A stretch of 64,000 bases of DNA. Source: Alkalicella caledoniensis (GTDB taxonomy: Bacteria > Bacillota > Proteinivoracia > Proteinivoracales > Proteinivoracaceae). The position numbers were made by a program, and so were the translations under genes. Location: the NCBI RefSeq assembly GCF_014467015.1, contig NZ_CP058559.1, positions 744,001-808,000 on the forward strand, read 5' to 3'. Positions 14,112 to 35,134 of the stretch are shown piece by piece. Numbering within the stretch: position 1 is the stretch's first letter; each line of letters opens with the position of its first letter. The notes beneath the pieces are model-generated. The model was not told the origin of the DNA. It saw only the letters and a program-made list of their open reading frames with translations, and did not search any database.

Positions 14112-14140
14112 TTGACTTTAGTTTGCTAAATTGCTAAAAT
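14112..14140 (+). promoter_or_regulatory. Sigma-A promoter of the asnA T-box transcript
   Basis: TTGACT (14112-14117), 17-bp spacer, TAAAAT (14135-14140). It faces away from the tetR promoter 20 bases away. Confidence 0.75.
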
Positions 14141-14154
14141 AATAATTAATAAAT

Positions 14155-14420
14155 AAAAACTGTGATGAGAAGAAGTAAATGTAGAGATTAGTTTCAGCGA
14201 GTTGGTGATAGTGGGAGACCAATACGAAGGCTATATTGAATAACATCTCGGAGTTTCTAACTGAAATCCTTTAAGGAAAGTAGGCTTAGACGGAGCCTGT
14301 ACCGTTAGCATCAGGGCGGTTTGATAGAACCGTATTTAAGTGAGCGTATTTTGCTAACTAGGGTGGTATCGCGGAAGTTAAAGCTTTCGTCCCTTATTAT
14401 AGGGATGAAAGCTTTTTTTA
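14155..14420 (+). ncRNA. T-box riboswitch (asparagine) upstream of asnA
   Basis: Complete T-box leader: stem I begins near GATGAGAAGAAGTAA, the AAC triplet at 14242-14244 is the likely Asn specifier, the T-box proper AGGGTGGTATCGCGG is at 14360-14374, and a strong terminator follows (arms 14380-14394 and 14401-14415, then T residues). Uncharged tRNA-Asn should stabilise the antiterminator and allow transcription of the asparagine synthetase gene. The specifier fits the downstream product. Confidence 0.93.
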
Positions 14421-14430
14421 TTTTAGATAC

Positions 14431-14520
14431 CTTTGCGTAGTAGCAAAACAGCTAACTAGGGTGGCACCACGGAAGCTTAAGTCTTTCGTCCCTTTTCATA
14501 GGGATGAAAGGCTTTTTTTG
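14431..14520 (+). ncRNA. Second, truncated T-box (3' half only) upstream of asnA
   Basis: A TTTGC/GCAAA mini-stem, then GCTAACTAGGGTGGCACCACGG with a second T-box (14458-14472) and a second terminator (GTCTTTCGTCCCT pairing with AGGGATGAAAG, then TTTTTTT). It repeats the 3' half of the first T-box but has no stem I or specifier. It lies between the first terminator and the asnA start, so transcription must pass both. Confidence 0.85.
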
Positions 14521-14550
14521 TACCATAAAATAATGAGGAGGTTTTATTTC

Positions 14551-15561
14551 ATGACATGTTTAAAATTATCGCAGCAGTACAAACCATTATTGAGCATTAG
14601 GGAAACAGAAGTAGCAATTAAAGAGATTAAAGACTATTTTGAAAGAAAGCTGGCGGAGGAACTGAACCTTACTAGGGTCTCTGCACCTCTTTTTGTAGCT
14701 AACCATACGGGATTGAATGATAACCTAAGTGGTGTGGAGGCACCTGTATCTTTTACCGCTCCTGCAGTTAAAAACCACCAATTTGAAATAGTCCACTCCT
14801 TAGCAAAGTGGAAGCGTATGGCACTAGCTAGGTATGGGTTTGAAATGGGAGAAGGCTTGTACACTGACATGAATGCCATTCGCAAGGATGAGGAGCTAGG
14901 CAACCTTCATTCCATTTATGTTGATCAATGGGATTGGGAGAAAATCATTTCAAAGGACCAGCGCAATAAGGATACATTGAAGATGACTGTTAGAAAAATC
15001 TACAAAGTATTTAAGTCCACAGAAGCTTACGTCACCAGTCTTTATCCACAGATCAAACCAATTTTGCCAGAGGAGATTCACTTTATCACAACACAAGAAT
15101 TAGAAGACTTGTATCCTTCCCTTTCACCAAAACAAAGGGAGCATGCCATTACAAAGGATAAAGGTGCAGTTTTTCTACTTGAAGTAGGTGAAGTGCTGAG
15201 GTCTGGTATTCCCCACGATGGTAGATCCCCTGATTATGATGATTGGTCATTAAATGGCGACATCTTATTCTGGTACCCAATGTTGGACTGTGCCATAGAA
15301 CTCTCATCCATGGGCATAAGGGTTGATGGCAAGACACTTCTGTCACAGCTGGAAAAAGCAAATGCTAAAGAAAAAATGTCCCTAGACTTTCATAAACAAC
15401 TCCTTGAAGGTACTCTGCCACAAACCATAGGAGGGGGTATAGGACAATCTCGCATCTGTCTGTATTTCCTAAGAAAAGCCCATATAGGCGAAGTACAATC
15501 CAGCGTCTGGAGTGATGAGATGATTAAAGAATGCCAAAAGGCAGGAATTCAACTACTATAA
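14551..15561 (+). CDS. asnA: Aspartate-ammonia ligase (asparagine synthetase A)
   Basis: 336 residues, the normal length of AsnA, which makes asparagine from aspartate, ammonia and ATP. It is related to class II aminoacyl-tRNA synthetases: [16 protein letters not shown], the conserved DMNAIRKDE segment and the C-terminal [21 protein letters not shown] (motif-3-like) are clear. ATG 14551 has GAGGAGG nine bases upstream; longer frames run back into the T-box. Control by an Asn-specific T-box, here with a duplicated terminator module, fits an asparagine biosynthetic gene. Followed by a bidirectional terminator. Confidence 0.96.
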
Positions 15562-31733: not shown

Positions 31734-31754
31734 ATAACCTAATATAATAGTAAA

Positions 31755-31996
31755 AGCTATGAAAAGGACAGTAGTAAAAGGAAGTAGTTTTCAGAGAGAT
31801 AATCACTTTGCTGCGAGATTATTAAACAAAACCTTTTATGAATATCACCTTTGAGTTGGGTTGCCGAAATTAAGTAAGCCTCCCCGTTTAAGAATACGTT
31901 ACATTCTTTTGAGTGACAGCATTTTTTTGCTGTAATCAGGGTGGTACCGCGGATATTCCGTCCCTAAGTCTGTAAACTAGACTTAGGGACTTTTTT
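31755..31996 (+). ncRNA. T-box riboswitch (isoleucine) upstream of ileS
   Basis: Leader with GGACAGTAGTA-type start, likely Ile specifier ATC at 31844-31846, T-box AGGGTGGTACCGCGG at 31938-31952, and terminator arms GTCCCTAAGTCT / AGACTTAGGGAC (31960-31990) followed by TTTTTT. It senses uncharged tRNA-Ile and controls ileS. Confidence 0.95.
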
Positions 31997-32035: not shown

Positions 32036-35000
32036 GTGGAAAAATTTAAAGAGTTATCCAATGCCCCAGTTAAAGAAAATGAAGCTATTGTTTCGGATTT
32101 CTGGGATAGTGTGGATCTACTTCAAAAGACTGTTGATGTCAGAGAAGGATCTAAACCATTTGTATTTTTTGAGGGTCCCCCCACTGCAAATGGCAAGCCA
32201 GGTATCCACCACGTAATCTCTAGAACATTAAAGGATTCTGTGTGTAGATACAAAACCATGGAGGGATTCCAAGTTAAAAGAAAGGCAGGTTGGGATACCC
32301 ATGGCCTACCTGTGGAGCTTGAAGTGGAAAAACAACTAAAACTATCTAGCAAAACAGATATAGAAAATTACGGTTTAGCAGAGTTTAACCATAAGTGCCG
32401 TGAGTCTGTATTTACCTATGAAAAGCTTTGGAGAGATATGACTAGGAGAATGGGTTACCTTATCGATCTTGAAAATCCGTATATCACCCTAGACAACGAC
32501 TATATAGAATCAGTTTGGTGGATTTTAGATAAGTTTAATAAAGAAGGCTATATCTATGAAGGTCATAAGATATTACCCTATTGCCCCAGATGTGGAACTG
32601 GTCTTGCTTCCCACGAGGTTGCACAAGGATATAAGGAAATTAAATCTAATACTGTAATTGTTCCATTTAAAGTAAAAGACAAGGATGAATACTTCCTTGT
32701 TTGGACAACAACTCCTTGGACATTGGCTTCAAATGTTGCCTTAGCTGTACATCCAAATGAAACTTATGTAAAAGCTTTAAAGGATGGTAAAGTTTATATC
32801 GTCGAAAAAACACTGTCCAGTAAAGTTCTTAAGGAAGACTATGAAATAATCGAAGAAGTAAAAGGTACAGACTTAGAGCATACAGAGTATGAGCAACTTA
32901 TGCCATTTGTAAAGCCAGATAAAAAAGCCTTCTTCGTAACCGTTGCAGATTATGTAACAACCGGTGATGGTACAGGTATTGTTCATATAGCACCTGCATT
33001 TGGTGAAGATGACTACCATGTTGGACTTAAATACAATCTTCCTGTACTACAACCTGTTGATGATGCAGGTAAGTACACAACAACACCATGGGAAGGTAAA
33101 TTTGTAATGGACTGTGATGTTGATATTATCAAATGGTTACATGGTGAAGGAAAATTGTTTAGCAAAGAAAAAATTGATCATAACTACCCACATTGCTGGA
33201 GATGTCAAACACCTCTTTTATACTACGGAAAGCCAAGTTGGTTCATCGAAGTAACCAAGATGAAAGATCAGCTTATTGCTAACAACAACACAGTTGAGTG
33301 GTACCCAAGCTATGTTGGTGAAAAACGTTTCGGCAACTGGCTAGAAAATCTAAATGACTGGGCTATTTCAAGAAACCGTTACTGGGGTACTCCACTAAAT
33401 GTATGGAAATGTGAATGTGGCCATAAAGAGTCTGTAGGTTCAAGACAAGAACTTATGGACAGAGCCATAGAAGATATCGATGAAACAGTTGAGCTGCATA
33501 GACCTTTTGTAGATGACATTCACTTAAGATGTGAAAAGTGCCAAGGCTCCATGACCCGTGTACCAGAAGTAATTGACTGCTGGTTTGACAGTGGTGCCAT
33601 GCCTTTTGCACAACACCATTACCCATTTAAAAACAAGGAAAACTTTGATCAATTATTCCCTGCAGATTACATCTGTGAAGGTATTGACCAAACTCGTGGA
33701 TGGTTCTATTCACTACTGGCCATTTCTACATTTGTTACAGGAAAAGCGCCTTATAAAAAGGTTTTGGTTAATGACCTTATCTTAGACAAAGAAGGACGTA
33801 AAATGTCTAAGTCAAAGGGCAATACAGTTGACCCATTTGAACTATTTGATATGTATGGTGCAGATGTATTAAGATGGTACCTTCTTTATGTTTCCCCTGC
33901 TTGGTCACCAACTAAGTTTGATATAGAAGGACTAAAGGAAGTACAAAGTAAGTTCTTTGGTACCCTTAAAAATGTTTATACATTCTTTACCCTATATGCA
34001 AACACCGATGAAATTAACCCTAAGGATTTTTTCGTTGACTATAACAAGCGCCCTGAATTAGATAGGTGGTTATTATCCAAATTCAACACCCTTGTTAGTG
34101 AAGTTAAATCCGACATGGATGTATTAGACCTTACTAAAGCTGTTAGGAAGATCCAGGAGTTCGTTAATGAGGATTTATCAAACTGGTATATCCGTCGTGC
34201 TCGCCGTCGATTCTGGGCTGCAGAGTTAGATGACGACAAAAAAGCTGTTTACAACACCACATATGAAGTTTTAGAGGGTGTTGCTAGATTAGTTGCTCCT
34301 TTCGCACCATATCTATCGGAGGAAGTTTACAGAAACTTAACTGGAGAACTTTCTGTTCATCTAGCTGATTACCCAGTTGTTAATGAGACACTAATTGATA
34401 AACATGTTGAAGAAAGAATGGATCTTGTAAGGGATTTAGTGGGACTTGGACGTTCTGCTAGGGTTCAGTGTAAAATCAAAATCCGTCAACCCCTTCAGAA
34501 AATGATTATCGATGGTGCCCATTATGACCTAACTCATGATTTAGTTCCACTTATGCAAGAGGAACTAAATATAAAAGATGTTGAGTTTGCTAAAAACCTT
34601 GATAACTTCATGAACTATAGCCTGAAGCCTAACTTTAAAGTAGCAGGCCCAATACTTGGTGGTAAAATTAAGCTACTAGGCCCTGCACTGGGTAAAGTTA
34701 ATGCCAGTGAAGTAATTCCAAAGTTAGAAGCTGGCGAAACCATTAGCGTAGATCTAGGCGAGGAAACCTTAGAGCTTAACAAAGAGCTTGTTATGATTAA
34801 CATCTCTTCTAAAGAAGGATTCACCGTTGAGATGGAAAACAATCTATTTGTTATCCTAGATACCACTTTAACCCAAGAGCTAATCAATGAAGGGTATGCC
34901 CGTGAGTTTGTATCTAAGGTACAGCAAATGAGAAAAAGTAGTGGTTTTGAAGTCATGGACAATATCAGCATTGTCTATGATGCAGATGAGGAAGTTTCAG

Positions 35001-35134
35001 CTGCAGTTGAAAACTTTAAAGAGTATATTAAATCCGAGACACTGGCCCTATCCATCGAGAAAGTTCAAGATGATTCCTTAGAAAAACAAGATTTAAATGA
35101 TCATCTAACAGGAATTGGTGTAAAAAAAATATAA
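32036..35134 (+). CDS. ileS: Isoleucyl-tRNA synthetase, type 2, with altered HIGH motif
   Basis: 1032 residues, class I synthetase joining isoleucine to tRNA-Ile. It belongs to the longer, eukaryote-like type 2 group: N-terminal FVFFEGPPTANGKPGIHH rather than the YxxHDGPPYANG of type 1, and no C-terminal zinc finger of the type 1 kind. The HIGH signature reads GIHH (56-59), while KMSKS is normal at 589-593. The CP1 editing domain (about 190-400) and the anticodon-binding domain (about 690-850) are present, as are CPRCG and CQTP cysteines in CP modules. GTG start 32036 has AAGGA ten bases upstream. Regulated by the Ile T-box. GxHH forms of type 2 are linked to very high mupirocin resistance. 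Confidence 0.96.
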   Translation: MEKFKELSNAPVKENEAIVSDFWDSVDLLQKTVDVREGSKPFVFFEGPPTANGKPGIHHVISRTLKDSVCRYKTMEGFQVKRKAGWDTHGLPVELEVEKQLKLSSKTDIENYGLAEFNHKCRESVFTYEKLWRDMTRRMGYLIDLENPYITLDNDYIESVWWILDKFNKEGYIYEGHKILPYCPRCGTGLASHEVAQGYKEIKSNTVIVPFKVKDKDEYFLVWTTTPWTLASNVALAVHPNETYVKALKDGKVYIVEKTLSSKVLKEDYEIIEEVKGTDLEHTEYEQLMPFVKPDKKAFFVTVADYVTTGDGTGIVHIAPAFGEDDYHVGLKYNLPVLQPVDDAGKYTTTPWEGKFVMDCDVDIIKWLHGEGKLFSKEKIDHNYPHCWRCQTPLLYYGKPSWFIEVTKMKDQLIANNNTVEWYPSYVGEKRFGNWLENLNDWAISRNRYWGTPLNVWKCECGHKESVGSRQELMDRAIEDIDETVELHRPFVDDIHLRCEKCQGSMTRVPEVIDCWFDSGAMPFAQHHYPFKNKENFDQLFPADYICEGIDQTRGWFYSLLAISTFVTGKAPYKKVLVNDLILDKEGRKMSKSKGNTVDPFELFDMYGADVLRWYLLYVSPAWSPTKFDIEGLKEVQSKFFGTLKNVYTFFTLYANTDEINPKDFFVDYNKRPELDRWLLSKFNTLVSEVKSDMDVLDLTKAVRKIQEFVNEDLSNWYIRRARRRFWAAELDDDKKAVYNTTYEVLEGVARLVAPFAPYLSEEVYRNLTGELSVHLADYPVVNETLIDKHVEERMDLVRDLVGLGRSARVQCKIKIRQPLQKMIIDGAHYDLTHDLVPLMQEELNIKDVEFAKNLDNFMNYSLKPNFKVAGPILGGKIKLLGPALGKVNASEVIPKLEAGETISVDLGEETLELNKELVMINISSKEGFTVEMENNLFVILDTTLTQELINEGYAREFVSKVQQMRKSSGFEVMDNISIVYDADEEVSAAVENFKEYIKSETLALSIEKVQDDSLEKQDLNDHLTGIGVKKI

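Follow-up and report, generated by a model that had tools for sequence, protein, structure and literature searches.

The leader of asnA in Alkalicella caledoniensis raises the question of how a T-box 3′ half with neither Stem I nor specifier could respond to tRNA. The window, that is, the whole stretch of 64,000 nt that was analyzed, had been described in an earlier note as containing a full Asn T-box with its terminator, followed by a second block with a terminator of its own. The note offered two options for this block: it reads only the acceptor end of a tRNA, or it relies on the tRNA that Stem I of the first module already holds.

Anatomy of the asnA leader

Downstream of a putative promoter read from the sequence (TTGACT-17-TAAAAT, 14112–14140; this and all leader features below lie on the plus strand), cmscan detected a complete T-box of the RF00230 family at 14153–14397, covering model positions 1–219 with a score of 124.5 bits against a gathering threshold of 93. 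This module 1 includes Stem I, specifier, T-box and terminator. Alignment to the specifier loop of the model places the specifier codon AAC (Asn) at 14242–14244 in the context GAA-U-AAC-A. The codon suits the downstream asnA gene for aspartate--ammonia ligase (14551–15561; TIGR00669, 360.7 bits against a cut-off of 292.8), which is preceded by AGGAGG at 14536, and the genome carries three tRNA-Asn genes with the anticodon GTT. The acceptor stem reads CTGAGGA-G-CCA in two of these copies, which gives the 3′ end GCCA.

The 5′ side of Stem III, comprising the purine string AAGUG and the 5′ strand AGC, lies at 14338–14345, and its 3′ strand in module 1 was assigned to GCU at 14353–14355 by the RF00230 alignment and by folding. 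The T-box 1 core GGGUGGUAUCGCG (14361–14373) starts with GGGTGGTATCGCG and includes the bulge UGGUAUC (14364–14370), in which UGGU pairs with GCCA through a wobble of U with G73 of tRNA-Asn. Antiterminator 1 (14360–14394) had −10.9 kcal/mol in a constrained fold that leaves the 7-nt bulge free, and terminator 1 (14380–14422) had −22.6 kcal/mol plus a T-run.

The second core, GGGUGGCACCACG (14459–14471), starts with GGGTGGCACCACG 98 nt downstream of the first; the letters given for the two copies in the earlier note, TATCGCGG and CACCACGG, are correct. Its bulge, UGGCACC (14462–14468), matches the 3′ end of the same tRNA, as UGGC is fully Watson-Crick paired with GCCA. Antiterminator 2 (14458–14493; −8.5 kcal/mol with a free 7-nt bulge) and terminator 2 (14480–14521; −21.4 kcal/mol plus a T-run) have CUUUCGUCCCU in common and are mutually exclusive. 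The covariance search that had been proposed returned a single complete match, on module 1, and no second RF00230 match in the leader. As the cores are only 98 nt apart, neither a second Stem I nor a second specifier can be accommodated. The leader is thus not fully tandem; it has one Stem I and two T-box/antiterminator/terminator modules, as in the class known as partially tandem T-boxes.

The two modules are identical at 67 of 80 aligned positions. The stem of terminator 2 has diverged from that of terminator 1 by compensated changes that leave it paired throughout, and T-box 2 is intact, retaining the consensus ACC; decay of module 2 is therefore unlikely. These features agree with the earlier view that transcription has to pass two serial antitermination decisions and that the duplication is not brand new. 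Elsewhere in the 3.7 Mb genome no further pair of this kind was found, nor did the reversed-pattern control yield any.

Other T-boxes were encountered in the same genome. Three complete, very similar tandem T-boxes (118–129 bits) lie at 1308332–1309352 on the minus strand (L011), where the specifier looks like CGC (Arg) and the following gene encodes a peptide-type ABC transporter substrate-binding protein. The window also contains an ordinary single T-box at 31750–31968 (130.2 bits) with a specifier that looks like AUC (Ile), upstream of an ORF of 1032 aa (32036–35134) resembling isoleucyl-tRNA synthetase.

Distribution of paired T-box cores and their fit to tRNA

We scanned 84,980 genomes for pairs of T-box cores no more than about 115 nt apart with an intervening CGTCC; this gave at least 119 stretches. 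Among the 120 matches listed, the window included, about 100 have terminators after both cores, and these group into 58 clusters at 80% identity. An automatic filter dropped 21 of the 120 for lacking a clear second terminator or a T-run; many of the dropped matches are chance matches in coding sequence, and a few look genuine (for example L048, L053, L128 and L136). Of 398 genomes drawn evenly from the phylum, 13 carried the arrangement versus 1 for the reversed pattern. The convincing loci among those listed belong mostly to biosynthesis or transport genes of Bacillota, mainly serC, serA, sodium/solute symporters, DAHP synthase, trpE/D/B and ilvB/D/N. An aminoacyl-tRNA synthetase gene, nondiscriminating aspS, is downstream in only two of the listed clusters, and asnA is downstream only in the window among the annotated loci listed. 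The RF00230 match ended at module 1 in 14 of 17 loci scanned and at module 2 in none. As Rfam finds the first module only, surveys based on it miss this class.

Four other genomes of the order were compared. Three of them have asnA, each with one ordinary T-box (L145–L147) in which the bulge contains UACC and Stem III has 3 bp (AGC/GCU); among the genomes compared, the duplication is therefore confined to this lineage. UAUC in module 1 of the window is probably the derived form. The arrangement sought in relatives is thus absent from the three asnA genomes of the family and present at about 60 clusters elsewhere. The decay of the second half in relatives, which the earlier note had considered as an outcome, was not what we observed: the three asnA relatives have a single T-box, and the second half persists at the clusters elsewhere.

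The fourth base of the T-box bulge faces the discriminator base of the tRNA, and G73 is expected in the Ser, Trp, Asp and Asn tRNAs of other species. With gene classes assigned by hand, 27 of 28 clusters whose genes point to Ser, Trp, Asp or Asn had C at this position in one or both modules, and 21 of 22 clusters of the other assigned group had U in both. The base covaries between the two modules (Fisher p = 6e-6) and tracks the discriminator expected from the gene.

Predicted pairing of the Stem III strand with both modules

A conserved purine string flanks Stem III, and antiterminators lacking Stem III have hardly any affinity for tRNA (PMC7583486). We therefore looked at the sequence that precedes T-box 2 as a partner for the Stem III 5′ strand of module 1. 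The Stem III 3′ side of module 2, UAGCAAAACAGCU (14441–14453), has as its partner AGCGUAUUUUGCUA (14343–14356) in both the minimum free energy (MFE) structure and the pair probabilities. The unconstrained MFE of 14331–14493 was −58.9, while its parts, folded one by one, add up to about −42; these bare-RNA energies ignore the tRNA, co-transcriptional timing and the distance that the tRNA end must travel. In this structure, AGC (14343–14345) exchanges its strand to pair with GCU (14451–14453), and UUUUGCUA (14349–14356) pairs with UAGCAAAA (14441–14448). GGUAUC of T-box 1 (14365–14370) is paired with GAUACC of the linker (14426–14431; pair probability 1.00), terminator 1 is looped out at the tip, and antiterminator 2 is present, its bulge open. 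The pair probabilities in this fold are mostly 0.8 to 1.0.

Dinucleotide shuffling gave a duplex at least as stable as the exchange duplex of the window (−24.7) in 23 and 17 of 5,000 cases (about 0.4%). With either module, Stem III has identical flanks, AAGUG before and AAC after, and the same basal pairs, so that module 2 is able to replace module 1 relative to Stem I. Taken by itself, the exchange in the window is modest: the basal Stem III has only 3 bp (AGC/GCU), the anchored score described below ranks 14th among 51 tails, and a local hairpin (UUUGC/GCAAA or UAGC/GCUA) competes with it. Elements whose exchange helices are stronger include L162, L034 and the triple element L164.

We then compared the loci found in the scan. 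When wide stretches were compared, the duplex signal was weak (z −3.9) owing to pairing between unrelated G+C-rich segments, and anchored strands were used instead. For loci that had been found by a T-box-core pattern blind to Stem III and clustered at 80% identity, the 12 nt that follow the module 1 purine string, whose position was set without reference to module 2, were paired with the 16 nt before T-box 2; the test covered 51 clusters, as 7 of the 58 have no recognizable purine-string anchor in module 1. The 5′ strand of module 1 and the 3′ strand of module 2 paired with a mean of −8.99 kcal/mol, versus −4.92 (sd 0.32) when permuted, and none of 20,000 permutations reached this value. Module 1's own Stem III pairing averaged −6.40 in the same clusters, and the lengths of contiguous pairs did not differ significantly between the module 2 and module 1 pairings (Wilcoxon p = 0.13). 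At fixed registers, excess pairing was found 5 nt before the core at positions 2 to 7, with a slight excess 6 nt before the core at positions 2 and 3 and essentially none in the remaining registers. Most anchored positions show five or six of the standard pair types. The exchange was part of the MFE structure up to antiterminator 2 in 37 of 51 loci, versus 8.2 with tails swapped between loci, and was absent from it in the other 14. In a second collection, hold-out loci gave −11.65 versus −4.51 for foreign tails; these are eleven rows absent from the first set, two of which are the same element and some of which are close kin of the first set.

Module 2 showed no sign of a Stem III 5′ strand of its own across the 51 clusters. 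A local partner in its linker gave −4.25 versus −4.97 for shuffled sequences, without excess, and a purine string before T-box 2 was present in 17 of 51 clusters versus 12 expected by shuffling, not above chance. These results bear on the option that module 2 is an independent sensor of acceptor ends, which would bind, without Stem I, whichever uncharged tRNA has a matching discriminator. The bulge of T-box 2 is intact and fits GCCA, but this end is common to Ser, Trp and Asp tRNAs, as given in textbooks, and specificity would be lost. Moreover, tRNA binding by an antiterminator is not appreciable in the absence of Stem III (PMC7583486), and module 2, with neither a Stem III 5′ strand nor a purine string above chance, complements the 5′ strand of module 1. 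We consider such a sensor very unlikely; the comparative data favor the other option of the earlier note, in which the tRNA is held by Stem I of module 1.

The exchange pairing runs on into the loop of module 1, by 1.18 nt versus 0.29 in permuted pairs (0 of 20,000). Descent from a duplication is insufficient to account for this, because a remnant would retain the 3′ strand and would not complement the module 1 loop. It is accordingly doubtful that the second half is a mere remnant, or a plain back-up terminator without tRNA sensing, with complementarity by descent. The family relatives that have asnA and lack the second half, which make the duplication private to the lineage, fit such an origin. 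Against it stand the intact T-box 2 core, whose bulge fits tRNA-Asn better than that of copy 1, the compensated changes in terminator 2, and a design retained in about 60 sequence clusters with pairing that reaches the loop of module 1; we judge a remnant or back-up terminator unlikely. Together, the evidence supports a Stem III strand shared by the two modules, and hence a second discriminator served by the sole Stem I.

A triple partially tandem element, in which a single Stem I is followed by three T-box 3′ halves, was also found (L164/L165). In L164, one of the hold-out loci, the sole 5′ strand GAUUUAUCCUGC is complementary to CAGGAUAAAUC, which precedes T-box 2, and likewise to GCAGGUAAAUC, which precedes T-box 3.

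In the fold of the window element the linker clearly covers T-box 1, but over all loci such covering is only suggestive: this pairing was found 27 versus 12.6 times in MFE folds while a simple duplex test gave no general excess (−5.72 versus −5.62). In about 10 of the 51 clusters (e.g. L026, L051, L061, L080, L082 and L101), the stem of terminator 1 involves the T-box core itself, GGGUGGUAC with GUACCACCC, instead of the CGUCCC segment; T-box 1 is therefore hidden by the terminator in these clusters. L036 and L056 have UAUC in the T-box of module 1, as in the window, together with a complementary AUACC in the linker, possibly a parallel change.

A model for the asnA leader and its relation to known T-boxes

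The arrangement is probably best explained as a partially tandem T-box in which a swap of the Stem III strand shows a fresh discriminator to the tRNA bound by Stem I. Uncharged tRNA-Asn would be caught by the sole Stem I through AAC and would stabilize antiterminator 1, so that RNA polymerase passes terminator 1. Module 1 would then be free to collapse into its own, now harmless, terminator hairpin, and the linker could pair with T-box 1 and the Stem III of module 1. With module 1 folded away first, the sole Stem III 5′ strand would re-pair with the 3′ strand preceding T-box 2, and antiterminator 2 with its fresh UGGC bulge would take the former position of module 1 relative to Stem I. If the tRNA-Asn retained on Stem I is still uncharged, its GCCA end would stabilize antiterminator 2 and asnA would be transcribed; otherwise terminator 2 would halt transcription. 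Such a double check would lower leakage and sharpen the response, giving tighter repression.

Even if the exchange occurs, the first tRNA might depart and a second one bind Stem I for the second decision. Stem I would remain accessible, and the residence time of the tRNA is presumably not fixed by sequence; the general T-box model, however, keeps the anticodon and elbow contacts of Stem I during the refolding of module 1, and we hold this variant to be possible but rather unlikely. Under the hand-over of a single tRNA, we are inclined to extend the model to partially tandem T-boxes in general, with somewhat less confidence than for the window: Stem III strand exchange would let a single tRNA be checked repeatedly, in a manner resembling kinetic proofreading, while used modules fold into their own terminators. 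The shared strand makes a concrete prediction that can be addressed by mutation, namely that two or three terminators are served by one tRNA-binding domain. Most of these leaders precede genes for biosynthesis and transport (serC, serA, trp, DAHP synthase, ilv and sodium symporters), where low leakage could pay.

The interpretation in the earlier note is supported in part, and the arrangement belongs to a known class, which the note did not say. T-boxes with duplicated terminator-antiterminator elements were reportedly described by Vitreschak and colleagues in 2008. The name 'partially tandem T-boxes' appears in a 2020 review, which lists their mode of action as unknown (PMC7583486). The asnA leader adds a new member to this known architecture. 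The sharing of a Stem III strand may be new, as no description of it was found in the T-box literature searched, which did not extend to the surveys of 2008 and 2009.

Like the known partially tandem T-boxes, the window element has one Stem I with a specifier and two terminator/antiterminator modules, and it differs from the other annotated loci listed in having asnA downstream. Fully tandem T-boxes (PMC12452182), of which L011 is a threefold case in this genome, likewise make serial decisions in one leader, with an AND-like response expected, but have a complete Stem I in each unit, whereas the window element has only one. Module 1 is entirely like a canonical transcriptional T-box of the B. 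subtilis glyQS and tyrS type, to which the window element adds a second discriminator and a second terminator.
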